Origin: Rhodospirillaceae bacterium | GTDB taxonomy: Bacteria; Pseudomonadota; Gammaproteobacteria; Steroidobacterales; Rariloculaceae | Length of the DNA stretch: 36,180 bases | NCBI GenBank assembly: GCA_024640685.1 | Contig: JAHEEN010000010.1 | Coordinates: 1-36,180 of the forward strand | Reading direction: 5' to 3' | In this document: piece by piece, positions 12,355 to 32,300 of the stretch | How the letters are laid out: the number at the start of each line of letters is the position of its first letter | Position numbering within the stretch: position 1 is the first letter of the stretch | Notes under the pieces: model-generated | The model's database searches: none | Told to the model about the DNA's origin: nothing | Seen by the model: the letters and a program-made list of their open reading frames with translations, nothing else | Translations under genes and position numbers: made by a program

Positions 12355-14235
12355 GTGGCCAGAACTGCGGCCATATTCTGCGTAGTTCAGCTTTTCGTCG
12401 TTGCGGTTGTCAACGCGGACGAGGAGGGTCTGCGCGACCTCTACTTCGGTGAGTCGCTCTTCTACGCGAGTCAGGGCGAATACTTCGACGCGCTGGAGCG
12501 ATTGGATACAGAGCTCGGCCAGTACTATAGGCTGGACGAGCCGTACCTCGACACATTGCATCTACATGTCGGCGATGCGGAATTCTCAGTCGGTGACTTC
12601 GAGCTCAACTATCGAATGCATCATCGTGCCGGCCGCGCGATTTCCGCGGTTCTCGAAGGTAATGTCGATGAGCTCGTTCGCAATGAGGCAGCATTTCGAC
12701 TCGCGCGGATACATTTTCAGAAAGACCAGGCCGAGGATGCGTTACACGCGCTGAATCGAATTCAGGGCCGCACGCCCGAGCCTTTGGTCGATGAGATTGA
12801 ATTTTTACGCGCCAACGTGTTTCTCGCGTTGGACCGAGTGCCCGAAGCGATTGACGTTCTCGAGCGAATCGAGAATGCCGAAGGGCTAGAGGGGTTTGCC
12901 GCCTACAATCTCGGTATTGCGTACCTCAGACACGGAGAGCAGCAAGAAGCACTCGACCAGCTCGGTCGAGCTGGTGTCGTCGAAGTCCTCGACGAGGGCG
13001 GCCGCTCGATTCGAGATAAATCCAATCTGGTGCTCGGCACGCTGTTACTCGAGGAGCGTCAATTCTCCGGAGCACAGAGCGCGTTGGACCGAGTACGTCT
13101 CACGGGCCCGTTAGCTAATCAGGCATTGCTCAGTGCAGGCTGGGCGGATTTCTCCGCGGAGAACTATCAACGTGCCGTCGTGCCTTGGGGCATCTTGGCT
13201 GGCAGAGAGTCGACCGACGCTGCCGTGCAGGAAGCGAAACTCGCACTGCCGTACGCGTACAGCCAGCTCGAAATCTTCGGTCGCTCGGCAGTGCTCTACG
13301 GCGAGGCGCTAGAGTCGTTTACCGATGAGCTGCGCAAGGTCGACGAGTCGATCAAAAGCATTCGCGATGGCAAGTTCCTAGAGGCCCTCGTTCGCGAGGA
13401 GATCCGGCAGAGCAAGGATTGGGTCATCGGCTTGCGGTCGCTGCCGGAGTCTCCTGAGACCTACTACTTGATGGAGCTATCGGCGTCGCACGATTTTCAA
13501 ACGGGCCTGCAGAACTATCTCGACCTAGAGGATCTTCGCGAGCGTCTCGAGTCATGGCAGCACAGCTTCGATGCGTTCGAGGACATGATCGCCGTTAGAC
13601 GCGAGTACTACGAGCCGTTGTTGCCCGAGATTGACCAACAGTTCCGCGAGCTCGACTCGCGCATTCTATTGCGCCAAGAGCAGTACAGGCTGCTGACCCA
13701 GCGTTTACAAAACCTTCTCGTCTCACCCCGCCCTGACTTTCTTTCTACGGACGAGGAGCGCCTGCTGATCGGTCAGCTGGATCGCCTAGAAGAGCGCCTT
13801 GGGAACGATTCTCGGCCCGAAGCCGTTAGTCTGCGCCACCGAATCGGCCGGTTGCGCGGTCAGGTGATTTGGACGATTCGAATCGAGTATCACGATCGAT
13901 TGACCGAGTTTGCCGAGCATCTTGCCGATCTGCAGTCGGCGATGGATGTCATGACCGAGCAATACGAGAGCTTTGTGCGTATCCGTCAGGCCGCGCTGCA
14001 TAGCTTCGAAGGCTACGATCGACCGATAACGCGCATGCGTACGCGAGTCAGAGAAGCGCTCGACCGCGTGAAGCTGCTGATGGGGCGTCAAGGGCACGCG
14101 CTCGAGCTTGTCGCAATCGACGAGCTGCTCGAGCGTCGCCGACGTCTCGACGACTACCGTAACCAGGCACGGTATGCCCTTGCCGACAGCTACGATAGGG
14201 CGACGAAAGGGCAAGTGAGTCGGGCAGAGCCATGA
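12355..14235 (+). CDS. Secreted TPR protein of the motor cluster
   Basis: This is a 626-aa periplasmic protein with a signal peptide (residues 1-21, ending VVNA before DEE). The N-terminal half carries TPR-like helical pairs (AEDALHALNRIQG, VPEAIDVLERIENAEG, AAYNLGIAYLRHGEQQEALDQL, NYQRAVVPWGILAG). The C-terminal half, from about residue 390, is charged and probably coiled coil (LEDLRERLESWQHSFDAFED, EEERLLIGQLDRLEERLG), ending in Arg-rich helices. The GTG start at 12355 has GGAGAG nine bases upstream. The stop overlaps the next start (ATGA), so translation is coupled. TPR proteins of this sort accompany TolQR-type motors in the Myxococcus Glt system; I infer a scaffolding role in the periplasm. 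Confidence 0.82.
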   Translation: MARTAAIFCVVQLFVVAVVNADEEGLRDLYFGESLFYASQGEYFDALERLDTELGQYYRLDEPYLDTLHLHVGDAEFSVGDFELNYRMHHRAGRAISAVLEGNVDELVRNEAAFRLARIHFQKDQAEDALHALNRIQGRTPEPLVDEIEFLRANVFLALDRVPEAIDVLERIENAEGLEGFAAYNLGIAYLRHGEQQEALDQLGRAGVVEVLDEGGRSIRDKSNLVLGTLLLEERQFSGAQSALDRVRLTGPLANQALLSAGWADFSAENYQRAVVPWGILAGRESTDAAVQEAKLALPYAYSQLEIFGRSAVLYGEALESFTDELRKVDESIKSIRDGKFLEALVREEIRQSKDWVIGLRSLPESPETYYLMELSASHDFQTGLQNYLDLEDLRERLESWQHSFDAFEDMIAVRREYYEPLLPEIDQQFRELDSRILLRQEQYRLLTQRLQNLLVSPRPDFLSTDEERLLIGQLDRLEERLGNDSRPEAVSLRHRIGRLRGQVIWTIRIEYHDRLTEFAEHLADLQSAMDVMTEQYESFVRIRQAALHSFEGYDRPITRMRTRVREALDRVKLLMGRQGHALELVAIDELLERRRRLDDYRNQARYALADSYDRATKGQVSRAEP

Positions 14236-17200
14236 AGCACTGGCAATGGGGTGCCGTCGGATCGGCTGGTGTCTGGCTAGTCGCGTGCGCTAGCGGGCCG
14301 GAGCGAGACACGCTCGCCGAGCTTCGCGACATAGAGCCGGATGTCGCGGAAGTCGACGTCGAGGACAGTCTCGATCGCGCGATGGCAAGCTACAGGGATT
14401 ACCTCGAGGAAACGCCCGAATCGGTGATGACGCCCGAAGCGCTACGGCGTCTTGCCGATCTGCAGATCGAGAAGCAATACGGGATCATCGGCGATGGCGA
14501 GATCGTCGAGCTCGCTGCGCCCGAGCCATCGGCCGACGTCGATAACGTTGCCGCTGCGCGGCCGGCGGCCGAAGCGCTGAGCTTGCCGGAATCGGCGCGC
14601 AGCACGGCCCCGATTGCGACTGGCGAGACTGCCGGTGGCAACGTCGAGGGGCTCGCGGATCTATCCGAATCGGATCAGGACTTCGAGACTCGGACGACCG
14701 GGCAGGCCGAGCTGACGGCCGCAGCCGATACGCCGGCGCTTGGAATTCCTAACGCGGACGACGACGTCGCGGCGGCCGGCCCGCTAGAAGCGATCGCGAT
14801 CTACAAACGCATCCTTACCGAGTATCCGAACTACGAGCGTACGGATCAGGTGCTCTATCAACTCGCGCGTGCGTACGACGAGATCGGTCAACCCGAGGAA
14901 GCGATGAGCGTCATGGACGACATGGCTGCGCGCTATCCGTACTCTCGTTATCTCGATGAAGTGCAGTTTAGACGTGGCGAGTTCCTGTTTACGCGCCGCC
15001 AATTCCGCGCCGCTGAGGAAGCATACGAAAAGATCATCGAGACGGGTCCTGGGTCGTCGTACTACGAGCTTGCGCTGTACAAGGTCGGTTGGTCGCTCTA
15101 CAAGCAGGAATTTTATGAAGAAGCGCTACACCGCTATTTGGCGCTGCTCGATTACAAGATGTCGATTGGCTACGACTTCGACGAGTCGCATGCCGAGGAC
15201 GAAGAGCGTCGGGTTGCCGACACGTTTCGCGTTATCAGCTTGAGCTTCTCGAATCTCGGCGAGCCCGAGTATGTCGATGAATATTTTACGACGTTCGGCC
15301 GGCGAAGCTACGAGGATCGCGTTTACAGCAATCTCGGTGAGTTCTATCTGACGAAGCTGCGCTACAACGACGCTGCGAAGGTTTATAACGCATTCGTCGA
15401 GCTCAATCCGTTTCATCGCTCGGCGCCCCGATTCAGCATGCGGATTACCGAGATCTACGGCGAAGGCAATTTTCCGCTGCTCGTCGTCGAGGCGAAAAAG
15501 GAATTCGCGACGCGCTATGGTCTCGAGTCGGAGTATTGGCAGCACTTCGACGTGGCTGAGCATCCCGAGGTCTTGGACTATCTGAAGACCAACCTCAAGG
15601 ATTTGGCGATCCACTATCACTCGCTGTATCAAGACGAAGTCTTGGCAGAAGCGAAACCGACGAACTTCAATGAAGCCTCGCTGTGGTACCGCGCGTTCCT
15701 GACATCGTTTCCTGACGATACCGAGACTCCATCGATCAACTATCAGCTGGCCGATCTGCTGCTCGAGAACGAGGACTATGGCGCCGCGGCGACGGAGTAT
15801 GAGCGTACGGCGTATGACTACGCGACTCACGAGCAGGCGCCGGCCGCCGGTTACGCGGCCGTTTTTGCGCATCGTGAGAACCTTGCAGCCGCTCAGGAGT
15901 TCGAGTATCCGGCGGCGCGCCGTGCGACTGTCGAAAGCTCTCTGCGTTTCTCCGAGACGTTTCCCGATCACGAGAACGCCGCCGTCGTGCTGGGCGCTGC
16001 GGCCGACGACTTGTACGAGATGCGGGAGTTCGAGCGAGCGATCATGGCCGGGCGTACTGTCGTCGAGCGATACCCGTCGGCAGAGACCGACTTGCGGCGA
16101 TCGGCATGGATCGTCATCGCGCACGCTTCGTTCGAGCTTAGCGATTTTCCGAATGCCGAGCAGGCCTATGCACAACTGCTTGATCTGTTGCCGACGGACG
16201 ACGAGTCGCGGCCGGGCTTCGTGGAGAATCTCGCAGCGGCAATCTACAAGCAAGGTGAAGAGGCTAATCTGATCGAGGATTATCGCGCTGCGGCCAATCA
16301 TTTCCTCCGGGTCAAGGCTGTTACGCCGACATCCGAGATTCGGCCTGCGGCGGAATACGACGCCGCAGCCGCGCTGATCCGATTAGAGGACTGGCCGGCG
16401 GCAGCATCCGTCCTAGAGGCCTTCCGCGAGAGTTTCCCCGAGCACGAATTCCAACCCGAGGTCACGAAACAGCTTGCGTCCGTCTACCGTCAGGGCGGTC
16501 AGATCGATCGCTCGGCGAGCGAGTACGAGCGCGTTGCAGCCGAATCGGACGATCCGCAGCTGCGCAGCGAAGCCATGTTGTTGGCCGCCGAGCTTTACGA
16601 GGAAGCAGGGCTGCTCGACAACACGCTCGACGTCTACCTGCGCTACGTTGCCGAGTTCCCGCAACCCCTCGACGTTGCTCAGGAGACACGCTCGAAAATT
16701 GCCGATATTTATGAGTCGCGCAGCGATATCGTCAACTATCACGAGATGCTACGCGAGATAGTTGCCGTCGATAGTGCCGCCGGTGCCGACCGCTCCGATC
16801 GCAGCCGGTTCCTCGCTGCCGGTGCAGCACTCGTGTTGGCGGAGCCGAGCTTCGATCGATTCATTGAAATCGAACTCACGCAGCCGTTTGCGGACAGTCT
16901 CGCCGAGAAGCAGCGGCGTATGGATGCGGCGCTGCAAACTTTCGAGTCGCTCGTCGGCTACCAAGTGGGCGAAGTCACGGCGGCGGCCACGTACTACATC
17001 GCTGAAGTCTACTTCGAGTTCAGCCGGTCGTTGCTCGAGTCCGAGCGCCCAGCCGACTTGGCGGCCGGTGATCTCGTCGACTACGACCTCGCGATCGAAG
17101 AGGAAGCGTTTCCGTTCGAGGAGCAAGCGATCGAGGTGCACGAGTCGAACTTCGAGCTCGTGACGGCAGGTGTCTATAACGAGTGGGTACAGAAGAGTCT

Positions 17201-17438
17201 CGAGCGCCTCGGCGTCCTGATGCCCGGGCGCTACGCGAAGTATGAAATCAGCAGCGGTTTCTTGGACTCGCTAGAAAGTTACTCGTATCAATCACCTGCG
17301 GCGATCGAGGCTGTGATGCAGGAGCTCAGCGAGCCGGCCGCATCGACCGATGGCGTCGATGGCGTCCCAGATGATGAGGACGATCTAGAGCCCGCAGATG
17401 ATTTCACGGAGGAGTATTCCAGTGCATCGGCACAATGA
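14232..17438 (+). CDS. Large TPR-repeat lipoprotein of the motor cluster
   Basis: This 1068-aa protein begins with a lipoprotein signal peptide and lipobox (WLVAC, Cys19), so it should be anchored in a membrane facing the periplasm. Residues ~20-180 are acidic and Ala-rich and look like a disordered linker. From about residue 183 to 960 many TPR or Sel1-like helical repeats follow (EAIAIYKRILTEYPNY, EEAMSVMDDMAARYPYS, RAAEEAYEKIIETG, NAEQAYAQLLDLLP, AASVLEAFRESFPEHEF). The C-terminus is acidic and disordered (DGVDGVPDDEDDLEPADD). The repeats fall in the family of periplasmic TPR proteins such as BamD, YbgF and the Glt TPR proteins. It overlaps the upstream gene by four bases and the downstream gene by 17. 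It is the largest protein of the cluster and a candidate structural arm between membranes. Confidence 0.85.
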   Translation: MKHWQWGAVGSAGVWLVACASGPERDTLAELRDIEPDVAEVDVEDSLDRAMASYRDYLEETPESVMTPEALRRLADLQIEKQYGIIGDGEIVELAAPEPSADVDNVAAARPAAEALSLPESARSTAPIATGETAGGNVEGLADLSESDQDFETRTTGQAELTAAADTPALGIPNADDDVAAAGPLEAIAIYKRILTEYPNYERTDQVLYQLARAYDEIGQPEEAMSVMDDMAARYPYSRYLDEVQFRRGEFLFTRRQFRAAEEAYEKIIETGPGSSYYELALYKVGWSLYKQEFYEEALHRYLALLDYKMSIGYDFDESHAEDEERRVADTFRVISLSFSNLGEPEYVDEYFTTFGRRSYEDRVYSNLGEFYLTKLRYNDAAKVYNAFVELNPFHRSAPRFSMRITEIYGEGNFPLLVVEAKKEFATRYGLESEYWQHFDVAEHPEVLDYLKTNLKDLAIHYHSLYQDEVLAEAKPTNFNEASLWYRAFLTSFPDDTETPSINYQLADLLLENEDYGAAATEYERTAYDYATHEQAPAAGYAAVFAHRENLAAAQEFEYPAARRATVESSLRFSETFPDHENAAVVLGAAADDLYEMREFERAIMAGRTVVERYPSAETDLRRSAWIVIAHASFELSDFPNAEQAYAQLLDLLPTDDESRPGFVENLAAAIYKQGEEANLIEDYRAAANHFLRVKAVTPTSEIRPAAEYDAAAALIRLEDWPAAASVLEAFRESFPEHEFQPEVTKQLASVYRQGGQIDRSASEYERVAAESDDPQLRSEAMLLAAELYEEAGLLDNTLDVYLRYVAEFPQPLDVAQETRSKIADIYESRSDIVNYHEMLREIVAVDSAAGADRSDRSRFLAAGAALVLAEPSFDRFIEIELTQPFADSLAEKQRRMDAALQTFESLVGYQVGEVTAAATYYIAEVYFEFSRSLLESERPADLAAGDLVDYDLAIEEEAFPFEEQAIEVHESNFELVTAGVYNEWVQKSLERLGVLMPGRYAKYEISSGFLDSLESYSYQSPAAIEAVMQELSEPAASTDGVDGVPDDEDDLEPADDFTEEYSSASAQ

Positions 17439-18135
17439 GAGACTCGACCGATGGCGCGTTGCTGCCCGCTGGCTCTTGCCGGTGACCGCGCTCGCGTTCT
17501 TCGCCGGCTGCGCGTCGGCACCGACTAGCGATCAGGCCGACACAGCTTTAGAAGCGGGCGTTGAAGAAACGACCGCAGAAGCCGAGCTGGAGCGTTCGCC
17601 GCGCGACATTGCGACTGTCGATTCCGACGAGCTGGGCTTCACGGTCACCGAGCAGCTGCAGATAAGTGGCGATGCACGCACCGCCTACGATCTTGCGATG
17701 CAGTACTTGATGCAGGATCGAATCGAGGAGGGCATCGATCAACTGCAGCAGGTCATCGAGCAAGTGCCGGATGTCACTGCGCCTTATATCAATCTCGGCA
17801 TCGCCTATGGGCGACTCGGCGACAACGAATCTGCAGAGTCCGCGCTACGCGACGCGATTGAGCTGACGCCCGAGCACCCGATTGCGCACAATGAGATCGG
17901 CATCGTCTATCGCCGCACGGGCCGATTCGACGAGGCGCGCGCGAGCTACGAGCGGGCGATCGAGATTCATCCGGCATTCCATTTCGCGCGGCTGAACTTG
18001 GCCGTGCTTTGCGATCTCTATCTGCGTGATCCTGCCTGTGCGATCGAGCATTACCAGGCCTATCTCGACGCCGTGATCAAGGACGAGCAAGTCGAGATCT
18101 GGGTTGCGGACTTACGCGCAAGAAACGGACTATAG
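17422..18135 (+). CDS. TPR lipoprotein of the motor cluster (AglT/GltE-like role)
   Basis: This 237-aa lipoprotein has the lipobox FFAGC with Cys30, then a disordered acidic segment and three or four TPRs (ARTAYDLAMQYLMQDRIEEG, YINLGIAYGRLGDNESAESA, AHNEIGIVYRRTGRFDEARA, FARLNLAVLCDLYLRDPACA). The GTG at 17422 is chosen over the ATG at 17398 because GGAGGAG at 17408-17414 is seven bases upstream of it, and it gives a compact signal peptide. The gene starts inside the end of the preceding one (17-base overlap). Small TPR lipoproteins beside TolQR pairs are a hallmark of Myxococcus Agl/Glt loci, where AglT (GltE) is needed for gliding. The functional equivalence is inferred from architecture only. 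Confidence 0.85.
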   Translation: MHRHNERLDRWRVAARWLLPVTALAFFAGCASAPTSDQADTALEAGVEETTAEAELERSPRDIATVDSDELGFTVTEQLQISGDARTAYDLAMQYLMQDRIEEGIDQLQQVIEQVPDVTAPYINLGIAYGRLGDNESAESALRDAIELTPEHPIAHNEIGIVYRRTGRFDEARASYERAIEIHPAFHFARLNLAVLCDLYLRDPACAIEHYQAYLDAVIKDEQVEIWVADLRARNGL

Positions 18136-18671: not shown

Positions 18672-19364
18672 ATGAACGTTTTCTACTCAATGGTCACCTT
18701 CTTCTCCACTGGTGGACTGTTCATGTATCCGATCTTGTTGGTGTTTGCGGTCGGGCTTGCGATCGCAGTCGAGCGCTATATCACGCTGACACTGATCACC
18801 AACAAGAACGCTAGTGTTTGGAGTCAGATTCAACCGATGCTGCTGAATGGCGAGTTCGAGCAGGCTCGCGAGATGACCGACAAGGACGAGTCGACGATCT
18901 CGCGCGTGCTCAGCATGGGACTCGCCCGTCAGGGTGCGGTGCGCCGACGCGAGGACATCGAGATCGCGATGGAAGAGAGCATGATGGAGATCATTCCGCA
19001 GCTCGAGAAGCGAACGCCGTATGTCGCATTGTCATCGAATGTTGCAACATTGCTGGGTCTGCTCGGAACGATCATGGGCCTGATACAGGCGTTTACGGCC
19101 GTTGCGAACGCGAATCCAGCCGAGAAAGCGGATTTGCTATCGGCAAGTATTTCCGTTGCGATGAACACGACGGCGTTCGGCCTGATGGTCGCGATCCCAT
19201 TGCTGGTTACGCATGTCGTGCTGACAGCAAAGACCGGTCAGATCGTAGATAGCCTCGAGATGGCATCGGTCAAGACGCTGAACGTGTTGTCGTCTCGAGC
19301 GAAGCGCGCTATCGGGGTTGAAGCTGACTCGAGCTCGAGCACAGAAGTTCCGGCCCTAACCTAG
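18672..19364 (+). CDS. TolQ/ExbB/MotA-type proton channel subunit (AglR-like)
   Basis: This 230-aa inner membrane protein would form the pentameric proton channel that powers the cluster. It has three predicted TM helices: about 15-37 (LFMYPILLVFAVGLAIAVER), 118-141 (SSNVATLLGLLGTIMGLIQA) and 155-183 (SISVAMNTTAFGLMVAIPLL). TM2 has the Gly-rich LLGLLGTIMGLI and TM3 the Thr-containing AMNTTAFGL expected of TolQ/ExbB. The cytoplasmic loop carries the family MSLARQGAVRRREDIE-type region (here MGLARQGAVRRREDIE). The ATG at 18672 is preferred to 18651 because GAGG lies eight bases upstream of it. Two TolR-like genes follow, as in AglR-AglQ-AglS of Myxococcus; TolA, TolB and Pal are absent, so it is not the cell-division Tol system. 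Confidence 0.92.
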   Translation: MNVFYSMVTFFSTGGLFMYPILLVFAVGLAIAVERYITLTLITNKNASVWSQIQPMLLNGEFEQAREMTDKDESTISRVLSMGLARQGAVRRREDIEIAMEESMMEIIPQLEKRTPYVALSSNVATLLGLLGTIMGLIQAFTAVANANPAEKADLLSASISVAMNTTAFGLMVAIPLLVTHVVLTAKTGQIVDSLEMASVKTLNVLSSRAKRAIGVEADSSSSTEVPALT

Positions 19365-19379
19365 TACGCAGCATTCGTC

Positions 19380-19934
19380 ATGGCTAGACGGCATCATTAT
19401 CGGTTGCGTTCAAAGCAGCCCATGGAGCTGGACGTCACCACCTTCCTGAACCTCATGGTGGTGCTGGTCCCGTTCCTGCTCATTACGGCTGTATTTTCTC
19501 GAATTACGATCGTCGAGCTGACGCTGCCGAGCTCTTCGGGCGGTAGCTCGGCGCAACCGCCTGCGTTTCGCGTCGAGGTCATCGTGCGGCAAACGGGTCT
19601 CGAGATCAGCAACGGTAGCGCAGTCATCGCAGCGATACCGAAGATCGACGAAGAGTACGATTTCCCGACGCTCAGCCGGTACATGATGTCGCTAAAGCGT
19701 GACTATGCCGATCTCGAATCGGCATCCGTCTTGCTCGAGAAAGATATCCCGTACGACTATTTGATTCAGACGATGGACGTCGTTCGCAGTGCCGAGGTCC
19801 CCGCGGAATCCGCTGAGCTGAGCGAGGTAGCCGAGATCGAAGGAGTGCTCGTAGCTGAGAACTCAGACGAAGAGCAGGCTGGCTTCATTCGTGTCGCGCT
19901 GTTTCCGAATATTTCGATTGGAGAGGCTCCGTGA
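19380..19934 (+). CDS. TolR/ExbD-like protein lacking the proton-carrying Asp
   Basis: This 184-aa protein has a basic N-terminus, one TM helix (about residues 22-43) and a periplasmic ExbD-type domain with an acidic tail. In canonical TolR/ExbD the TM starts with a motif like NVTPLVD, whose Asp carries the proton. Here the same stretch reads DVTTFLN: Asn24 (codon 19449-19451) is at the Asp position, and Asp18 sits where the family usually has Asn. The protein may therefore be a structural partner rather than a proton-carrying one. The next gene is a second TolR with the normal Asp and overlaps this one by four bases (GTGA), so they are probably made in equal amounts. There is no clear Shine-Dalgarno sequence before this ATG. 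Confidence 0.88.
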   Translation: MARRHHYRLRSKQPMELDVTTFLNLMVVLVPFLLITAVFSRITIVELTLPSSSGGSSAQPPAFRVEVIVRQTGLEISNGSAVIAAIPKIDEEYDFPTLSRYMMSLKRDYADLESASVLLEKDIPYDYLIQTMDVVRSAEVPAESAELSEVAEIEGVLVAENSDEEQAGFIRVALFPNISIGEAP

Positions 19935-20437
19935 AAAATTCTCGGCGCATTAAGCGTATGTCTCGCAATCGCTCGGCGATGACGAAGATGAATCTGACGT
20001 CCTTGATGGACGTGTTTACGATTCTCGTCTTCTTCTTGCTCGTGAATTCGGGCCAATCCGAGGTGCTCGACTCACCGAACGAGGTCGTATTACCCGAGTC
20101 GGTCGTCGAAACGAGGCCGCGCGAGACAGTTGTGATCTTCATCAGTCCCGACGAAGTCGTCGTTCAGGGCGAGGCAATGATCAGCACTGCGGAGATCGCT
20201 GCGAGCACGGGCAGCATCGAGCCTATCGTCGCTAAGCTGAATGAGATCAACGAGGCGATCATCGGCCCGAGCACTCAGGTCATTGCAGCTAGCCAAGAAG
20301 TCACAATTCTGGCCGACAAATCCATTCCGTTCGACGTAATTAAAAAGGTTATGTCGACGTGCACGAACGAGGGCTTTACGCGCATCTCGCTCGCCGTTAC
20401 GCAGAAGGCCTCGCAAGTGGCTGTTTCCGAGGTCTAG
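19931..20437 (+). CDS. TolR/ExbD-like protein with the conserved Asp (AglQ/S-like)
   Basis: This 168-aa protein has a strongly basic N-terminus (KNSRRIKRMSRNRS), a single TM helix at about residues 22-42 and a periplasmic ExbD-type domain. The motif NLTSLMDVFTILVFFLLV carries the conserved Asp27 (codon 20009-20011) expected to shuttle protons with the TolQ-like channel. The periplasmic part ends in the ExbD-like IPFDVIKKVMSTCTNEGFTR. The GTG start at 19931 has GGAGAGG a few bases upstream and overlaps the stop of the first TolR-like gene. I infer that the working stator is TolQ with this subunit plus the Asn-bearing paralogue, probably as a TolR heterodimer. Confidence 0.92.
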   Translation: MKNSRRIKRMSRNRSAMTKMNLTSLMDVFTILVFFLLVNSGQSEVLDSPNEVVLPESVVETRPRETVVIFISPDEVVVQGEAMISTAEIAASTGSIEPIVAKLNEINEAIIGPSTQVIAASQEVTILADKSIPFDVIKKVMSTCTNEGFTRISLAVTQKASQVAVSEV

Positions 20438-21868: not shown

Positions 21869-22752
21869 TCTGGCGAGCTCATCGCGCTAAGCGCGGATTC
21901 CGTGACCTGACTATTCACGAGCGCCTTCGGCGTTGTGTCGAGCGTGCAATAGAGAAAATCGGCACGCAATTCTCTCAAGCCGCCAGCTTGTCGACATCGA
22001 ATCGACGTCGATTATTGGCTTAACTACGCCGATATTTGTTTGCAACTGCGCGACTCGAATTGCGCGTTGGAGCGTATTGAAATGCTGCCATCGGTTTTTC
22101 ATCCAGCAGGGGTTCTCGTGGCGCGGTGCGTCACTCGTCAGGCCTTAACGCGCTCGTCGATGGACATAATCCTCGAGAACTTCGACTGCGTCATGAATTC
22201 GCCGTTTGGCGACACTTCTGCACGTCGATGCTCGAAAAATCGAGCGCTCGGAGATCCAGGTTCTAAGCCGTTTTTGAGGCCGGCTCAAATGTGTGCCCGT
22301 AGTTACCCAAGCTGTGATGTCTGTCACCCAATCGACATCACTTGATGCGCGATATTTCTGCTCAATGTGATTTTGACAAACGTGTTGCCACGATTACGTG
22401 GGGATGCACAACACCAATTGCGTGGACGTGACGCGTGACGGTGGAGCAGCAGCATGACGTAAGGATGCGTCAAGACAACAGGCTGCTCCTGGCAAGTGGG
22501 ATTGGAAATGAGACAGGGACGTTTTCTCGCAGGATGTGGCTGCGGCGCAGTCGGCATGCACGAGGCCGATCTGCGTCGGTCGTGTACCCGACGCGATAGC
22601 GCGAATCTAGGCTCGCGCGCAACGGCGATCGCGGCTCGTTCGTAGCCCGAGAGATCATGAGCAGCGCGTCGAACGAATTCACGCTTAGCGACCACGTTGG
22701 CGGTGCAGCGGCTGCATCGGCACGCGTGCGCATAGGTGGTCGGTTCCCTGTG
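21869..22752. other. Long gap between motor cluster and DUF11 gene
   Basis: About 880 bases without a supported gene; short frames on both strands show no family features. Just after the motor cluster two small hairpins occur: CGCGC-TAA-GCGCG at 21883-21895, and a six-pair stem AGCGCC-TTC-GGCGTT about 25 bases further on. Neither is followed by a T-run, so termination is uncertain. A CRP/Vfr-like TGTGA-N6-TCACC lies at 22313-22328. The rest may be a long leader of the giant gene, or decayed sequence. No riboswitch of the c-di-GMP class could be recognised. Confidence 0.45.
22313..22328 (+). promoter_or_regulatory. CRP/Vfr-like site upstream of the DUF11 gene
   Basis: TGTGA-TGTCTG-TCACC matches nine of ten bases of the CRP half-site consensus TGTGA-N6-TCACA. 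It is 425 bases upstream of the preferred DUF11 start, which is far for direct activation unless the leader is long. A chance match is possible. Confidence 0.3.
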
Positions 22753-25700
22753 ATGAGTCGGCTGCGCTCACTGCCTTTCGCAATCGTCGGTTTGTTGCTT
22801 CTCGCGTTTGGCTCCAATCCCGCGCAGGCGCAAGATTGCTCGGACTTCGGCGGTGTGCTCGACGGCTTCGCCGGCGACATCGCGCCGTCGCAGTTGCAGA
22901 TCGACATGAATTGCACGATCCGCAATTACCCCGCATCCAATCCGCTCAACACGAACTTCAGTTTCTTCACGCAGCCGGGCCAGAATGACGAGCGTTGGCT
23001 CATCGTGTTCGACAACGTCGTCCACACGGGCAACATGTCGTGTAACTCCGTCCTCGAGCACAAGATCTGGTTCACGAACGGCTCGTCGACGAAGATCCAA
23101 GAGGGTTGTCAGAATCTCTTGATCCCTGTCGAGAAGATCGAGAAAGACAATCCGGCGGGCGCGACGACAGCCACGATCGGCGTGCCATTCACGTACACGC
23201 TGACGACGCCGGTGCTGTTCGACGCCGGCACCGGCACGGTCATCAACAATCAAGGCTCGCTGAACGACCTGCACGGTGTCGTTCTGACCGACGATCTGAA
23301 TGCGACCGGAGTCGATCTCACGTACGTCAGTCACGTCGCGTACTGGGAAGCAACCGGGCAGCCTGTCGCGCACAGTTTCGACAACACCGGCGGTTTCCTG
23401 ACGTTCGACAACTTCCCGATCGTTCCGGCCGACGAGCAGATCATCATCGAAGTCACGGTGGTGCTCGAGGACACACCGACGAACTCGCCCGGTACGCAGT
23501 TCATCAATACGGCGAAGTGGGAGTTCGGACGCCTGATCGACGGCGTGTTCTACGAGCCGCTGCCTGGCGAATGGGGCATCTCCGATCCGCTGACGATCGC
23601 TGCGCCGAATGTCGTTGTCACGAAGACCGGGCCCGCCACGCTGGGCCGGACGCTGAATCTCGGCGAGTGGGGCGACTTTGGCATCGACGTTCAGAACACC
23701 GGTCTGACCGATGCGTGGAACGTGACGATCGTCGATGAGCTGCCTCGCGGTCCGACCGGCGGCATGTGCGACCTGATGCCTGAGATTGTCTCGGCACAAG
23801 TGTTCGCAGCCGACGGCACGACGCCGGTGCCAGGTAAAGGCCCGCTCGTGCCGGGCGTCGACTACACGGTTGCGTACACGGGTTTCCCGCAGTGTGAGTT
23901 GACGCTCGAGACATTGACCGCTGCCGCGGCGATCGGACCGACCGAGCGGTTGATCGTCGACTACCGCACGCGGCTCGATACCGATAGCCAGGACGGCATC
24001 GCGCTGACGAACATCGTAGGCGCGACGCAGTGGTACAACGGCGACGTTACCAATCCCGAGCGACAACTCTATACACGCACGGTCACGAACGGTACGCCGG
24101 GCGTCGTCGATCATCAGGATGCGCACACGGTTACCGTCGAGCTTTTCGGTTACTTCTTCGAGAAGACCGTCGAGAACCTGAACACCGGTGCGAATCCGGC
24201 GACGACAGCCGCACCCGGCGACGTGCTGCGTTACTCGTTGCGGCTGCAAGCGACCGATGTCGCGCTCGACGACGTTCAGTTCCTCGACGACCTCGGTGAT
24301 CTCAATGCCGGCGCCGTATTCGTGCCCGGCAGCCTGACGATCGTACCCGGTACGCTGCCGCCGGGCGCCGATGCGACGAATACCAACCCTAGCGGCGGAA
24401 CGAACAGCAATGGTCTGCTCGACATTCGTAATATCGATGTTGCTGCGTTCAGCGACATCACGATTCAGTTCGACATCACGCTCGATGGCGCGCTGCCCGA
24501 CGGCACGCTCGTCACGAACCAAGCCGACCTGATCAGCGTCGTCAAGATTGCCGATAGCGACGACCCGAACGTCAACGGCCAGGCCGATCCGAGTGTGCCC
24601 GGCGACGAAGATCCTACACAGCTCTTAATCGAGGACGTGCCGCCGGCGGCATTGGCCAAAGCTACGACGCAGGCGACCGCGGCCGTCGGTGAGGAATTCG
24701 TCTACGAGATCACCGTGCCGTCGGCCCCGCATACGGCGCCGCTCTATGACGTGCGAATCTTCGACGATCTGTCGGCATCGGCCGCGGATCTCGAGTTCGT
24801 CAGCGTTGCGCGCGTCTCGGGACCGGCCTTCACGCCTGACAACACCGGGACACTGACGAGCCTCGTCATCGAGGATCTGCCGGGCGGCATCGACATCCCG
24901 GCTGGACAGCAGGCCGTCATTGCCGTGACGGTCCGCGTGCTCGACACGCCGACCAACGTTGCCGGTCTGACATTTACGAATACGGCGAGCTACGCCTATA
25001 ACCTGATTAACGGCAACGATGCGAGCGTACGGCCGGGCGACCCTGGCACGAGCGGTCCGATGACGATCGTCGAGCCGGAGCTAACGCTCGAAAAATCGGG
25101 GCCGGTGCAGATGCGCATCGGTATCCCCGGCACGTTTACGCTGAACGTGCAGAACACCGGCGACTCGCCGGCGCACGCGCTGACGATCGTCGACATCCTG
25201 CCGAACTCGCAGACCGGCGGCATGTGCGACGCGGCGCCGGTGAACTTGGCGGCACAGATCTACGAGGCCAACGGGACGACACCTGTTGGCGCAGCGTTGG
25301 CCGAGGGCGTCGATTTCTCGGCGGTATTCGATGGCGATCCGACGTGCGTGTTGACTTTGACGATGCTGACGCCGGCTGCCGCCATCGGGCCGACGCAGCG
25401 CTTGATCGTGACCTACGAAGCCTCGCTCGATCCGATCACGCAAGATGTTGCGCTGATGAATATCGCCGGCGCAACCGAGTGGTATAGCGTCGATATTTCA
25501 GCGCCTAATGATGAAGCGCGCCAGTACGTGCGTCCGGTCACCGACGGTACGCCGGGAACGCTCGATCATGAGGATGCGCATACGGTCACGATCAATTTGG
25601 CCGTGCTGCGTTTCGAGAAGACTGTCGAGAACGTGACGACCGGCGTCAACCCGGCCGCGACTGCGACGCCTGGCGACACGCTGCGCTACACGCTTTATTT

Positions 25701-28700
25701 GGAGAATACCTCCGACGCCGATCTCGCCGACTTCAGCGTTATTGACGCGCTCGATGCGCTCAATGCGCCGCCGGCATTCGTGCCCGGGACGCTGACTGTG
25801 ACGAGTGCGCCGGCGGGTGCCGATCTGACGAACACGAACCCGACCGGTGGGCCGGCCGGGACGGGTCTCCTCGATATCCGCGGCTTGAGCATTGGCGGGC
25901 TTGGCGCGACTGTGACGATCGAGTTCGAGGTCGTGCTGGCGCCAGTGCTGACGAACGGCAGTTTCGTCCTGAATCAGTCGCGTGCGACCGTTGGCGGTTT
26001 CGACGTTGCCGTCAGTGACGACCCGAACGTCAACGGCGCAGCCGACCCGGACGTCGCCGGCGACGAGGATCCGACGCAAATTCAGATCACCTCGGCGCCG
26101 CTGTTCGACGTCGACAAAGTCTCCGCGTACATGACGGGTGATCCCGCCGTGTTGCTCGCCGGTGAGACGCTGCGTTATACGCTGACTGTTGCGAACATCG
26201 GCACCGACAACGCGACCGACGCGATGTTGCGCGACGATGTGCCTGCAAATACGACGTACGTCGCCGGCAGCATGACGCTGAACGGCGTTGTCGTCGCCGA
26301 TCCATCGGCCGGTGTATCGCCTCTGACGGCCGGTATTCCGTTGAACGCACCCGAGGACTCGACACCGGGCGCGCTCAGAGCCGATGCGTCCGCACCGGCG
26401 GCGGCGACAGCGACGATCGTGTTCGACGTCGTCGTCGACCCGAACGTTGTCGACGGCACGATCATTTCCAACCAAGGCTTCGTTAGCGCGCCGGTCGGCG
26501 GTGTCGTCGATCAACCGTCCGACGACCCGCGCACGCCCGTTGTCGACGATCCGACACGCGACATCGTTGGTGCGCTGCCGCTGATCTATGCGGAGAAATC
26601 AGCGGCGTTGGTGCCCGGCCTGGACTTCGGCACGCTTGGCGTCGTCGATCCGGGTGACACGCTGCGTTACACGATCACGATGTTCAACAACGGCTCGGTG
26701 GCGTCGACCGAGGTTGTGCTGACCGACAACGTGCCGCTCAACACAGCCTACGTCGAGGACTCGACGACTCTGAACGGTCTGCCAGTCGGTCAGCCAGACG
26801 GTGGAACGTCACCTCTCGTCGCCGGCATCCCGGTGAGATCGACGGACCTCATGCCGCCGTTGCCAGGCGTGGGTGAGGGCACGTTGTCGCCAGGCGAGTC
26901 GGCCGTCGTGCAGTTCGATCTGCTCGTCGACGGTGCGGTCGCACCGGGCACGCTGATCACGAATCAGGCGCTCGTGCAGAGCTATGAGCTACCGGCGGTG
27001 TTTACCGACGGTGATGGAAATCCTGCTACGGGGCCGGAGCCGACGGTCGTCGTCGTCGGGCCCGGCCAGCAGCTGACGATTACGAAACAAGTCGCCATTG
27101 TCGGCGGCGGCCCGGCCGTTGCTGGCGCGACGCTCGAGTACACGGTCCGAGCGCTGAACGTCGCGGCAGTCCCGGCATCCTACGTCGTCATTACGGACGA
27201 CATCGATGCGGCAACGCCGAACGCGCTGCAGTACGTTGCGGGTTCGGCAACGCTCAACGGCTCGACGAACGGTGTCGTGTTCACCGACCCCGTGATCGCG
27301 GCCGATTATGCCGCGACCTACGGTGATCTCGCCCCGGGTGAGGAAGCCGTGCTGCGCTTCCAGGCCATCATCGAGCCGACGCTCGCGATCGGCTCGGTCG
27401 TCACGAACATGGCCGAGGTCGTCTGGGACGATCCTCCCGTGCCGCCCATCAGTGCGAGCGTCTCGATCTCGGTCGGCGGCGTTCCGGGTGTCGGTATCGT
27501 CAACGGCACCGCTTGGCACGACGCCGACTTCGACAACGTGCTCGACTCGAGTGAGCGGCTGCTCGAAGGCTGGACCGTCGATCTGTATCGCAACGCGAAT
27601 CGAATTCATACGACGCTGACGGCCGCCGACGGCACCTATCAAATCATCGGCATCGCGCCGAACTATCTGACGAGCGACCAATACGAGCTGCGCTTCGTCG
27701 CGCCGGGTGCCGGCACGAATACGGCATTGCTCGGTATCACCGACTCGCCGTTTACGAACGAGCTGCAGCGCATTGCCGATGTCGTCGTCCAGTCCGGCGA
27801 CAATCTGCTCGACCTCAACCTGCCGATCGACCCGAACGGCGTCGTCTACGACGCAATGCAACGCACGCCGGTTGGCGGAACGATCCTGACGCTCGTCAAC
27901 CCCGCAAGCGGTGCGGCGCTGCCGGCAGGCTGCTTCGTCGATCCGGCGCAGCAGGACCAGATCACGCTCGCGGACGGTTACTACAAGTTCAATCTCGATT
28001 TCTCGGGCCCGGGCTGCGCGATCGGTGACTATCTGATTCGTGTGACCGTGCCAAGCGTAGGCTACGTCGACGGTTACTCGGCGATCATGCCGCCGTCGTC
28101 GGATGCGACGACCGCGCCGCTGTCCGTGCCGCTGTGTCCGGCATCACCGCAAGACGCGGTCCCGGCTACCGCGCAGTTCTGTGAGGCGCAGCCGTCCGAG
28201 TTCGCGCCGTCGGCCGCGATTGCCGCGCGCGCCAACGGCTCGGAGTACTACGTCCACTTGGCGCTCGACGACAGTCAGTCGCCGGGCTCCGGTCAGATAT
28301 TCAACAACCACATTCCGATCGATCCGACTCTCGAGGACGCGATTTCGATCACCAAGACGACGCCGTTGATCAACGTGACGCGTGGCCAGCTCGTGCCATA
28401 CACGATCACGATCGACAGCGAGGTCGACTTCGATCTGACGAACCTGACGATCGCCGATCGGTTCCCGGCCGGATTCCGCTATGTCGCGAACTCCGCGCGC
28501 ATCGATGGCGTCGAGTCCGAGCCCGTCGTCAACGGCCGCGAGCTCTTGTGGAACGATCTCGGCGTAACCGGGACCGGTCGCCATACGCTGCAGTTGCTGT
28601 TCGCGGTCGGTGGCGGCATCAGCGAAGGCGAGTACGTCAACCGAGCCCAGGCCATGCACAGCCTGACCGGCAACCTGCTGTCCGGCGAGGCGACCGCGAC

Positions 28701-29361
28701 CGTTCGGCTGACGCCAGACCCGACGTTCGACTGCACCGACGTCATCGGCAAGGTTTACGATGACGCCAATCGCAACGGCTTCCAGGATCTCGACGAGCGC
28801 GGCATCGGCGGAGTGCGCCTCGTCACGGCGACGGGCCTCGCGGCGACGACCGACGAATACGGCCGCTATCACATTACATGCGCAACGGTGCCGCGCGAGG
28901 GTCGTGGCAGCAACTTCGTCGTCAAGATCGACGACAGAACATTGCCGACGGGGTTCCGCTCGTCGACGTCGCTGGTGCAGATGGAACGAGCCACGCGCGG
29001 TAAGACGCTACGGCTCAACTTCGGCGCATCGATCCATCGTGTCGTCGGGCTAGACATCTCCGACCCGGTCTTCGAGCCGGACTCGGTCGAGCTTCGCGGG
29101 CAATGGGCGCCGCGAATCAACTTGCTGATCGAGGAGCTTCAGAAGGGGCCGGCAACGCTGCGCTTGTCGTATCTCGCTGACGTCGAGCGTCCCGCGCTCG
29201 TCGATGCGCGTGTTGCTGCCCTGCGGAATCAAATTCTGACGGCCTGGCAGGCGCTCAATTGCTGTTACGAGCTCGTGATCGAGCCCGAGATTTTCTGGCG
29301 CCGTGGTGGCCCTCCCGCCCAGCCACGCTCGGCAGTAACGCCAGCAGAGGGCGGCAGATGA
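22753..29361 (+). CDS. Giant secreted DUF11-repeat surface protein with C-terminal OmpA-like domain
   Basis: This 2202-aa protein has a signal peptide at residues 1-26 (cleavage AQA before Gln27). A Cys-containing N-terminal domain comes first, then about 1400 residues of DUF11-type Ig-like repeats with recurring patterns such as GDTLRYTLTVANIG, TYVAGSMTLNG and VTNQA. Two ~486-residue units are clear tandem duplicates (TGGMCD at residues 335 and 821; SDDPNVNG at 602 and 1088). Two SdrD B-like modules follow near 1585 and 1999, the second with a calcium-loop-like DDANRNGFQDLDE. Residues ~2095-2185 look like a degenerate OmpA-like domain. The ATG at 22753 gives a clean signal peptide; an ATG at 22657 would add 32 residues. 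The stop overlaps the next start (ATGA). I infer a long extracellular or periplasm-anchored fibre. Confidence 0.85.
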   Translation: MSRLRSLPFAIVGLLLLAFGSNPAQAQDCSDFGGVLDGFAGDIAPSQLQIDMNCTIRNYPASNPLNTNFSFFTQPGQNDERWLIVFDNVVHTGNMSCNSVLEHKIWFTNGSSTKIQEGCQNLLIPVEKIEKDNPAGATTATIGVPFTYTLTTPVLFDAGTGTVINNQGSLNDLHGVVLTDDLNATGVDLTYVSHVAYWEATGQPVAHSFDNTGGFLTFDNFPIVPADEQIIIEVTVVLEDTPTNSPGTQFINTAKWEFGRLIDGVFYEPLPGEWGISDPLTIAAPNVVVTKTGPATLGRTLNLGEWGDFGIDVQNTGLTDAWNVTIVDELPRGPTGGMCDLMPEIVSAQVFAADGTTPVPGKGPLVPGVDYTVAYTGFPQCELTLETLTAAAAIGPTERLIVDYRTRLDTDSQDGIALTNIVGATQWYNGDVTNPERQLYTRTVTNGTPGVVDHQDAHTVTVELFGYFFEKTVENLNTGANPATTAAPGDVLRYSLRLQATDVALDDVQFLDDLGDLNAGAVFVPGSLTIVPGTLPPGADATNTNPSGGTNSNGLLDIRNIDVAAFSDITIQFDITLDGALPDGTLVTNQADLISVVKIADSDDPNVNGQADPSVPGDEDPTQLLIEDVPPAALAKATTQATAAVGEEFVYEITVPSAPHTAPLYDVRIFDDLSASAADLEFVSVARVSGPAFTPDNTGTLTSLVIEDLPGGIDIPAGQQAVIAVTVRVLDTPTNVAGLTFTNTASYAYNLINGNDASVRPGDPGTSGPMTIVEPELTLEKSGPVQMRIGIPGTFTLNVQNTGDSPAHALTIVDILPNSQTGGMCDAAPVNLAAQIYEANGTTPVGAALAEGVDFSAVFDGDPTCVLTLTMLTPAAAIGPTQRLIVTYEASLDPITQDVALMNIAGATEWYSVDISAPNDEARQYVRPVTDGTPGTLDHEDAHTVTINLAVLRFEKTVENVTTGVNPAATATPGDTLRYTLYLENTSDADLADFSVIDALDALNAPPAFVPGTLTVTSAPAGADLTNTNPTGGPAGTGLLDIRGLSIGGLGATVTIEFEVVLAPVLTNGSFVLNQSRATVGGFDVAVSDDPNVNGAADPDVAGDEDPTQIQITSAPLFDVDKVSAYMTGDPAVLLAGETLRYTLTVANIGTDNATDAMLRDDVPANTTYVAGSMTLNGVVVADPSAGVSPLTAGIPLNAPEDSTPGALRADASAPAAATATIVFDVVVDPNVVDGTIISNQGFVSAPVGGVVDQPSDDPRTPVVDDPTRDIVGALPLIYAEKSAALVPGLDFGTLGVVDPGDTLRYTITMFNNGSVASTEVVLTDNVPLNTAYVEDSTTLNGLPVGQPDGGTSPLVAGIPVRSTDLMPPLPGVGEGTLSPGESAVVQFDLLVDGAVAPGTLITNQALVQSYELPAVFTDGDGNPATGPEPTVVVVGPGQQLTITKQVAIVGGGPAVAGATLEYTVRALNVAAVPASYVVITDDIDAATPNALQYVAGSATLNGSTNGVVFTDPVIAADYAATYGDLAPGEEAVLRFQAIIEPTLAIGSVVTNMAEVVWDDPPVPPISASVSISVGGVPGVGIVNGTAWHDADFDNVLDSSERLLEGWTVDLYRNANRIHTTLTAADGTYQIIGIAPNYLTSDQYELRFVAPGAGTNTALLGITDSPFTNELQRIADVVVQSGDNLLDLNLPIDPNGVVYDAMQRTPVGGTILTLVNPASGAALPAGCFVDPAQQDQITLADGYYKFNLDFSGPGCAIGDYLIRVTVPSVGYVDGYSAIMPPSSDATTAPLSVPLCPASPQDAVPATAQFCEAQPSEFAPSAAIAARANGSEYYVHLALDDSQSPGSGQIFNNHIPIDPTLEDAISITKTTPLINVTRGQLVPYTITIDSEVDFDLTNLTIADRFPAGFRYVANSARIDGVESEPVVNGRELLWNDLGVTGTGRHTLQLLFAVGGGISEGEYVNRAQAMHSLTGNLLSGEATATVRLTPDPTFDCTDVIGKVYDDANRNGFQDLDERGIGGVRLVTATGLAATTDEYGRYHITCATVPREGRGSNFVVKIDDRTLPTGFRSSTSLVQMERATRGKTLRLNFGASIHRVVGLDISDPVFEPDSVELRGQWAPRINLLIEELQKGPATLRLSYLADVERPALVDARVAALRNQILTAWQALNCCYELVIEPEIFWRRGGPPAQPRSAVTPAEGGR

Positions 29362-32300
29362 TCGGGCTCAGGCACAGTATGCTGATGCTCGCGACGCTAG
29401 CCGGTTCGCACGCGGTCGCGCAAAACTTGCTCGAGCCACCGCGCGGTGAGGCCGTCGAGCGACATCTGACGCCGGATGCCGAGCCGATGCAGTGGGCGCA
29501 CGATCCGGACTACGTGGCTGTCGAGCAGGGCGACGCTCTCGAGACGCGCGAGGTCGAGGTCGAAGAGCTCGAGACGATCAAGCTTGCGAACTTGGTCGAG
29601 CCGATTCGTTTCGGGTCGGGCGTTGCGAATATTCCCGATAGCACCGTCGAGGAGCTGCGCGGGATACTCGATCGCATGCGCGATCGCCGTAATGTGCGGT
29701 TGCACTTCGTCGGCCATGCCGACAATCAGCCGTTGTCGGTCGCGCTCGCCGCGGTATTCGGCGACAACGAAGGGCTGTCGAGAGAACGCGCGGGCGAGGT
29801 CGCGGAGCTTTTCAAGGCGTCGCTCGGCTTGCCGCCCGAGGCGGTCTCGTACGAGTGGGCAGGCGCGAGCCGTCCGATCGCATCGAACGACACGATTGCG
29901 GGCCGCGCGCTCAATCGCCGCGTCGAGGTCGAGATCTGGTACGACGAAGTGCGCGACGGCGTGGCGCTAGAGGAGTTTCTCGTCGAGCAACAGATTTCGC
30001 GGATCAAAGTCTGTCGGATGGAGACTGTCTGTAAGCTCACATATGTAGAAGGTCATCAGCACCGCGCGCGCGTACAGAACTTCATCGCACCGCTGCACTA
30101 CGACGCGGAGACGATCGATGTGTCGGATGCGTTCATCGCGCGCGTCAAAGAAGCGTTCGATAACCTGTCGGACAAGCGGAACGTCGTCGTCAGGTTCGTT
30201 GGCTACACGGATACGATTCCGCTCGTCGGTCGCGACGAGCGCATCTATGGCTCGCACGTCGGGCTGTCGCGAGCACGCGCCCGCCGGGTTGCGCTGGCGG
30301 TGCAAGACGCATTGGGTTTATCGACGGCCGCCGTCGAGAGCGATGGTCGCGGCGCCGAGCGTCCGCTCGGGTCGAACGACACCGACCGCGGCCGACGGCT
30401 CAATCGTCGCGTCGAGGTCGAGTTCTGGTACGACGATCCGTTGCAGGAGTTGCCGGACGAGCCGCAGCTCTGCCCGGCTGACGCAGGCGCGAACCTGGTG
30501 TCGAAGGTCTACGATCCGCCGTGGGGCGACATCGACGTATTGCAGCTCGATCAGGGTCAGCCCGTGCTGCCCGCGGGTTATACGCAGCAGCTGCGCCGCG
30601 CCATGGACGATGTCGCCGACAAAGCCAACGTGCGCTTGCGCGTTGTCGGTTACACGGCGAACGAGCGCCTCGATCGTCGTACCGCGATGGCCTACGGCGA
30701 CGACATCGGCTTGTCCGCTGCACGGGCACGCCGGACGATGGAGCTCTTGGCCGAGGATATGGCTCTCGCCGCCGATCAAGTCGAGTTTGAAGGTCGCGGC
30801 TACGTGCACTCTAGCGACGTCGTCAACGCCGGCTTCATGCAGGGTGAAGAGTCGTTCGTCGCAGTCGAGGTCGTCTACGACGATCTCGCGATCCTCGACG
30901 ATTACGAAGGCGTCGATATCACGCGGCTGACGCGCGAGCTTGCGCCCGAGAATCCGTACGCGCTCAACATGATGCGCATCACGGTCGACGGCGAGCCGAT
31001 CGACGACCCGAACCGCAGCTCTGCTGACATCCAGCGCTGTACCGACGTTGCGCTGCAGGATGCCGATATTCAGTTTAATTTCGACAATCTGCGCGCGAAC
31101 CCGCGGCTCAGCGTATCGGCATTCCCGGTCACGCTGGAGCTTCGCGAATCGGACTTCGAGGCTGCGCCAATCTTCGGTCCTTTCACGACCGGCGTCGGCA
31201 ACGAAGAGGTTCGTGACGACGATACCGTGACGATGCTCGAAGGTGGCATGACGGCCGAGGAGCGTGCTGAGCAAGAACGGCTGCAGGCGGAATTGGCAGT
31301 ATTCGCCGATGCAGAGCCGCCGCGATCGAATCGCTTGATGAGTGCGCTGGACTTCCTGATCCCTGGCGGTGACGGTGGTGACGTCGAGGACGTCGTGCCT
31401 GGCATCGAAAATGCCGAGCCGCCGCGTGTGGCTAGCGGCGCGATCCGATTCCGGATGTACAACAACTATTCGTATTTCATCGAGCGCAGCGAAATTCGTA
31501 TCTTCGACGCCGAGGATTCGACGCGTGCGACGCCTGTCGACGTTATCGAGATTGGCGAGGATGGGATAGCGGCCTGGCAACCGGCCGCCGAGCGATTCCG
31601 GGCACCGGTCCGCGAGCTCAAGTACGTGTTGCGGGCGTACGGTGAGGATGGCGCGTTCGACGAGACTGCGCCGCAGCCGCTGTGGCTGACGTACGAGCTG
31701 CCCGATCGCGGCGCTGACGAGTCATCCGACGATGCCGCGCCCGCCGACGATGCGTCGTCGGTGCCAGCGTTCGCCGAGTCGGATACAGAGGCTGGCGATG
31801 ATGGCATCTTGCCGGAGACCGCAGCCTGGGATCCGCGACTGTTTGCCGACTACGGCGAAAACGAGCTTGCGATGCGCAACATCTCGCTGTCGAGCGGCAC
31901 CGTGACCGTAACCGGCAGTGGCCTTGCGCCGGACCAGACCGTGCTCGTCGCCGGTCAGCCGACGCCGGTCGACTCGTCCGGCAACTTCGTGACCGAGACG
32001 ATATTGCCCACCGGCCTGCATACGGTCGAGGTCGCCGTGCTCGACGAGGAGGGCAGCGGCGAGCTTTATCTACGCGATCTCGAGTTCAAGCAGAACGACT
32101 GGTTCTACGTCGGCATGGCCGATATTACGCTGTCGGCTGACAAGACGAACGGCCCGGTCGACTTGCTGCAAGGCGAGAACTCGACATTCAACTTTGACGA
32201 TACGTCGACGGGACGCCTTGCGTTTCTCGTCAACGGCCGCTTCGGCGATCAATGGAAACTGACCGGGGCCGTCGATACGCAAGAGGAGCCGCTTGACGAT

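Follow-up and report, generated by a model that had tools for sequence, protein, structure and literature searches.

Can a motor of the TolQ/TolR type run with a proton-carrying side chain in only one of the two subunits of its axle? The question is raised by three consecutive genes in a 36,180-nucleotide stretch of DNA (the window; contig JAHEEN010000010.1 of assembly GCA_024640685.1, from a bacterium of the gammaproteobacterial family Rariloculaceae), which encode a TolQ-like protein followed by two TolR-like paralogues, here called TolR1 and TolR2, the first of them without the channel aspartate of its family. In the turnstile model of 5:2 motors, one proton is used per 36 degrees and two sites alternate (PMC9389320). 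Most solved structures of Ton and Tol motors show one Asp meeting a Thr of the pentamer, with the other Asp of the dimer facing a cytoplasmic cavity (PMC12905483). The literature that we searched, which included few subscription papers and no preprints, holds no description of an Asp-less TolR or ExbD partner.

The window's cluster shares with TolQR/ExbBD 5:2 motors the Pfam families MotA_ExbB and ExbD, the ion-path threonines of TolQ—both kept in every TolQ compared—and a TolR-like periplasmic domain (Table 1). Both paralogues pass the Pfam ExbD (PF02472) cut-off of 25.4 bits, TolR1 with 43.5 bits and TolR2 with 53.2 bits. The AlphaFold2 model of TolR1 has the architecture of the family, a single N-terminal transmembrane (TM) helix (residues 19–46) followed by a small periplasmic α/β domain with pLDDT above 90 across most of its length; the top fold matches in the PDB are periplasmic domains of ExbD and TolR, at weak E-values (0.013–0.019) that make this comparison supporting evidence only. 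The difference lies in the axle: ExbD and TolR are homodimers with two Asp, whereas here there are unlike paralogues, one of them without Asp. The initial annotation had read Asn24 of TolR1 at the essential Asp site and a retained Asp27 in TolR2, and alignment with solved ExbD and TolR chains bears out both, placing TolR1 Asp18 at the usual Asn position. By homology, TolR1 is filed as a member of the ExbD/TolR family, and not as a functional proton-carrying ExbD or TolR; on the channel Asp, TolR2 agrees with the family. Two further departures from TolQR/ExbBD are Pro31 in the Asp-less TM helix and, in the partner, a Ser at the site three residues ahead of Asp27 where Pro is usual. The four-base overlap of the two genes is also as first described; this −4 spacing is the commonest arrangement (75 loci) and suggests coupled translation of TolR1 and TolR2. 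Open frames of 349–369 amino acids were considered as TolR1–TolR2 gene fusions and rejected, as they are two genes in one frame with a stop between them.

Table 1. Positions of the motor genes, their key codons and the neighboring genes in the window
Feature	Position	Strand	Basis
TPR protein, probably GltC-like	12355..14235	+	TPR matches
Large TPR protein, probably GltD-like from cluster order	14232..17438	+	YbgF/BamD-type TPR matches
GltE/Tgl-like TPR lipoprotein	17398..18135	+	NCBIfam matches below equivalog cut-offs
Small predicted secreted protein, 120 aa	18147..18509	+	ORF
TolQ/ExbB-like pentamer subunit (AglR-like), 237 aa	18651..19364	+	Pfam MotA_ExbB, 88 bits; alignable to solved TolQ/ExbB
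TolQ Thr140 codon, ion-path Thr (E. coli TolQ T145/ExbB T148)	19068..19070	+	Alignment; invariant
TolQ Thr173 codon (Thr without TolR1 Asp, Asn/Cys in Asp/Asp motors)	19167..19169	+	Covariation survey
TolQ Thr174 codon, ion-path Thr (E. coli TolQ T178/ExbB T181)	19170..19172	+	Alignment; invariant
TolR1, first TolR/ExbD paralogue, 184 aa, without channel Asp	19380..19934	+	ORF, Pfam ExbD, alignment, survey
TolR1 Asn24 codon AAC, channel Asp site	19449..19451	+	Alignment with solved ExbD and TolR chains
TolR1 Pro31 codon, TM helix, 7 residues after Asn24; only in TolR1 without Asp	19470..19472	+	Covariation survey
GTGA, 4-bp overlap of TolR1 stop and TolR2 start	19931..19934	+	Sequence
TolR2, second TolR/ExbD paralogue, 168 aa, GTG start, channel Asp kept	19931..20437	+	ORF, Pfam ExbD, alignment, survey
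TolR2 Ser24 codon, 3 residues before Asp27; Pro/Ala in Asp/Asp motors	20000..20002	+	Covariation survey
TolR2 Asp27 codon GAC, on essential Asp; single remaining channel carboxylate	20009..20011	+	Alignment, survey
GltG/AgmX-like coupling protein, AgmX/PglI C-terminal (TonB-like) domain, 472 aa	20450..21868	+	NCBIfam NF033768, 55.5 bits, above cut-off

The first important finding is that the Asp-less TolR1 is a conserved pattern in two phyla and not a local oddity. Matches came from 147 genomes of the window's order, 274 of its class and 299 of its phylum, and 146 TolQ–TolR1–TolR2 triplets were read from these three ranks. The channel site of TolR1 is Asn in 132 of the 146 and Asp in the other 14, and that of TolR2 is Asp in each of the 145 readable sequences; gene order is the same in every cluster, and TolR1 is always accompanied by TolR2. 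In a 19-sequence alignment (A1), Asn24 is invariant. By way of control, all 30 other ExbD/TolR genes taken one per genome have Asp, a sample of best family matches that is biased towards canonical proteins. One gamma-type cluster of the Asp/Asp kind lies in a Nitrospirae genome bin (GWC2_57_13; L239), which suggests horizontal transfer or a binning error. The window's own genome carries eight ExbD-family genes, six of them with Asp, and the two without are the first TolR of this cluster (C73) and the first TolR of another (C208), so that both clusters share the Asn/Asp state. The C208 cluster (L325:4932-13534; TolQ, TolR1, TolR2) adjoins a PA2778-family cysteine peptidase.

The Myxococcota hold both kinds of cluster. 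In Myxococcus sp. CA023, the named Myxococcus genome, located through MglA, the two Q-R-R clusters found (L242 and L254) are Asp/Asp and AglQ/AglS-like, and Asp/Asp clusters also occur in Corallococcus, Hyalangium, Archangium, Anaeromyxobacter and Sorangium; in Nannocystis and Enhygromyxa, TolR1 carries Asn. When the Nannocystis TolR1 served as query against 113 Myxococcota genomes, it returned 30 loci, in 27 of which TolR1 lacks Asp and its partner keeps it, a proportion that is no estimate of prevalence given that the query favors the Asp-less form. Asp-less first paralogues (L265–L294) are found in many Myxococcota outside the model genera. Most of the 27 have Asn, one has Ser (L272) and two have Gly (L276 and L294), and given these variants the kept feature is the absence of an acid, and not Asn itself. 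Incidentally, a record labeled "Comamonas sp. KCTC 72670" (L160, L241) contains an aglRQS cluster like those of Myxococcus and an MglA sharing 99% identity with the M. xanthus protein, and is probably mislabeled.

The second important finding is that the state of TolR1 is linked to single positions in all three proteins. The comparison covers 192 clusters with TolQ, a total in which one Nannocystis cluster appears twice (L260 and L265). TolQ residue 173, adjacent to the ion-path Thr174, is Thr in 155 of the 159 in which TolR1 lacks Asp, and Asn or Cys in all 33 in which TolR1 has it. Similarly, TolR1 residue 31 is Pro in 156/159 versus 0/33, and Ser occupies TolR2 residue 24 in 151/157 readable sequences versus 1/33, with Pro or Ala taking its place in the latter group. 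Each link is present separately in the gammaproteobacterial and the myxobacterial groups, and among about 200 TolQ columns only 173 divides the TolR1 states so cleanly in both; four gammaproteobacterial clusters with Asn in TolR1 are without Thr173. At least six changes of TolR1 state are required on a TolQ tree built without column 173, and at least five on a tree that includes it. Across four independent contrasts on well-supported branches, Thr173 co-changes in about 4/4, Pro31 in 4/4 and Ser24 in 3/4, with none in the opposite direction, although sign tests on four contrasts (p 0.125 to 0.25) cannot reach significance. We dropped the view that Asp is ancestral and Asn derived, since the TolQ tree places a gammaproteobacterial Asp/Asp clade, as well as two more Asp rows, inside the Asn group; being unrooted, the tree does not separate gain from loss in TolR1. 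Another position of TolQ, that of ExbB Glu176 (Val169 in the window), carries Glu or Lys in the Asp/Asp motors of myxobacteria; most of their Asp-less motors have a hydrophobic residue or Thr there, and nearly all gammaproteobacterial motors a hydrophobic residue.

What kind of motor would this be? On balance, we think it probable that the cluster encodes a conserved 5:2 motor, a variant of the AglRQS/TolQR type, in which TolR1 and TolR2 form a heterodimeric axle with one carboxylate. The initial annotation had predicted such a heterodimer and had proposed that a consistently Asn-bearing first paralogue would support it; this axle fits because the orthologues do bear Asn and because the changes in TolQ and TolR2 are coupled to it. 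TolQ, TolR1 and TolR2 change together, and because the change is linked in TolQ and TolR2, the covariation argues, but does not prove, that TolR1 sits in the same pore as TolR2, one of each per pore. A TolQ pentamer would then enclose one TolR1 and one TolR2, Asp27 of TolR2 would be the sole proton carrier, and Asn24 of TolR1 (Ser or Gly in a few relatives) would present a permanently uncharged side chain at the matching site. Asp27 would bind a proton at one periplasmic half-channel, turn while protonated, release the proton and turn deprotonated to the next half-channel, which would give one proton per 72 degrees and about five per turn, as opposed to ten in 36-degree steps; a reciprocating motion is also conceivable. 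Two unlike periplasmic domains would give the axle a fixed polarity and perhaps a division of labor, in which one domain could be fixed to the wall while its counterpart, together with the GltG/AgmX-like protein, moves proteins of the outer membrane and the surface. The fuller claim, that natural 5:2 motors with a heterodimeric axle, a single proton site and five-fold instead of ten-fold periodicity operate in clades of both Gammaproteobacteria and Myxococcota, is one that we make tentatively.

A known mutant bears on this. In M. xanthus, AglQ D28N abolishes proton conductance and motility (PMC3858216), which weighs against the single-site reading: that Asp/Asp motor does not tolerate a neutral residue there. 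The loss would be understandable if the M. xanthus motor is without the linked changes.

The other readings of an Asp-less TolR1 differ in how well they withstand these data. The one that withstands them best, which we nevertheless regard as unlikely, is that the cluster makes two homodimeric complexes, an ordinary Asp/Asp motor of five TolQ and two TolR2 using ten protons per turn, and a proton-tight complex of five TolQ and two TolR1 serving as an anchor, a brake or a titrator. ExbD, TolR and MotB as a rule form homodimers, and a review of 5:2 motors, which records Asp in both AglQ and AglS, leaves open whether these two form homo- or heterodimers (PMC9389320). However, Ser24 of TolR2 and Thr173 of TolQ change with TolR1, which a TolR2 homodimer unaffected by TolR1 would not need, and TolR1 never occurs without TolR2 in the 146 clusters, their genes often overlapping. 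Doubtful to a greater degree is a heterodimer in which Asn24 is not inert but takes an active part in the ion path, as a hydrogen-bonding relay or a coordination ligand, perhaps for another ion. In favor of this, Asn makes up 156 of the 159 replacements and goes together with a polar Thr at TolQ 173, but some Myxococcota have Ser or Gly in its place with the same Pro and Ser signature. Highly improbable is a takeover of the channel role by another carboxylate of TolR1, Asp18 or Glu16, which would leave the axle with two proton sites. Position 18 is indeed acidic in the window and its near relatives, and the initial annotation had seen in Asp18 and Asn24 an apparent swap; the two residues are as it described, but a functional swap does not hold, as position 18 is free to vary, with Asn the most frequent residue (Asn 74, Asp 51 and Glu 4 among 131 Asn-type gammaproteobacterial proteins). 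Glu16 is an ordinary conserved acid that Asp-type proteins have too, and no later acid that could replace the carboxylate was found in the TM helix of the gammaproteobacterial TolR1 proteins. Finally, paralogues that have lost a catalytic residue are often decayed, but that TolR1 is a degenerate or redundant copy in which the loss of Asp was neutral is scarcely credible, and neutral decay is ruled out by conservation and dN/dS: TolR1 is under strong purifying selection (dN/dS about 0.10 against its nearest relative, with dN 0.13 and dS 1.33, similar to its partners), its TM helix is nearly invariant and it is retained across families and two phyla.

The neighbors of the genes place the heterodimer candidate in a known type of machine. 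The cluster lies in a same-strand run of TPR proteins (12355-18135), a small secreted protein, TolQ, TolR1, TolR2 and a GltG/AgmX-like protein, and so has the make-up of the AglRQS/Glt core complex: one TolQ-like and two TolR-like proteins, Glt TPR proteins and a GltG-like coupler. A gltDEG-gltC-aglRQS core complex in Gammaproteobacteria has been described as one gene cluster (Luciano et al. 2011, PMC3169522). In NCBIfam, only the AgmX/PglI C-terminal domain scores over its cut-off; equivalog-level matches to GltG, GltE and GltJ are not reached, the GltG match of the coupling protein being 31.7 bits and below cut-off, and profile searches gave no family match for the 120-residue secreted protein. 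As in M. xanthus AglRQS, which serves Agl-Glt gliding and Agl-Nfs sporulation, a TolQ-like gene is followed by two TolR-like genes and accompanied by Glt-like TPR proteins and a GltG/AgmX-type coupling protein. Unlike in Myxococcus sp. CA023, where both TolR paralogues have Asp, and in M. xanthus, where the first, AglQ, needs its Asp28 (PMC3858216), the window's first paralogue has none, so that the Asp given for both AglQ and AglS (PMC9389320) is here confined to one subunit.

Downstream of the motor cluster, the window encodes a 2234-residue DUF11-repeat protein (22657-29361) and a long OmpA-domain protein (29259-34790). The DNA downstream of the cluster was read in six relatives: five have a giant DUF11-repeat protein (2061–3413 residues) there, four an OmpA-domain protein of 1.7–1.8 thousand residues, and one (L331) has neither within the 9 kb read. 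These giants may be cargo of the motor or its outer-membrane track; gliding and the transport of spore coat offer an analogy, in which the motor may move or position the giant surface protein. Anti-phage defence models gave no match, and a plasmid search found no relative.

If the single-site reading is true, the motor would pass five ions per turn and, for the same proton-motive force, have a torque limit half as high, and evolution would have switched several times between one-site and two-site designs. There is a possible parallel in the c-rings of V-type ATPases, where ion-binding carboxylates were lost from duplicated rotor subunits and fewer ions pass per turn. This would be a similar change of gear, although the proteins are unrelated and a ring rotor differs from a dimeric axle. 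According to a review of 5:2 motors, ten-fold symmetry is "almost certain to be a universal feature" (PMC9389320), which would not hold as a general statement if motors with one carboxylate are a widespread class. The presence of Asp in both AglQ and AglS does not extend to their relatives. These clusters are a natural experiment on whether both proton sites are required, on how many ions pass per turn and on how work is shared by two unlike axle arms, and the clades that switch state, together with the linked positions in three proteins, provide a list of mutations with which to ask what separates the two designs.
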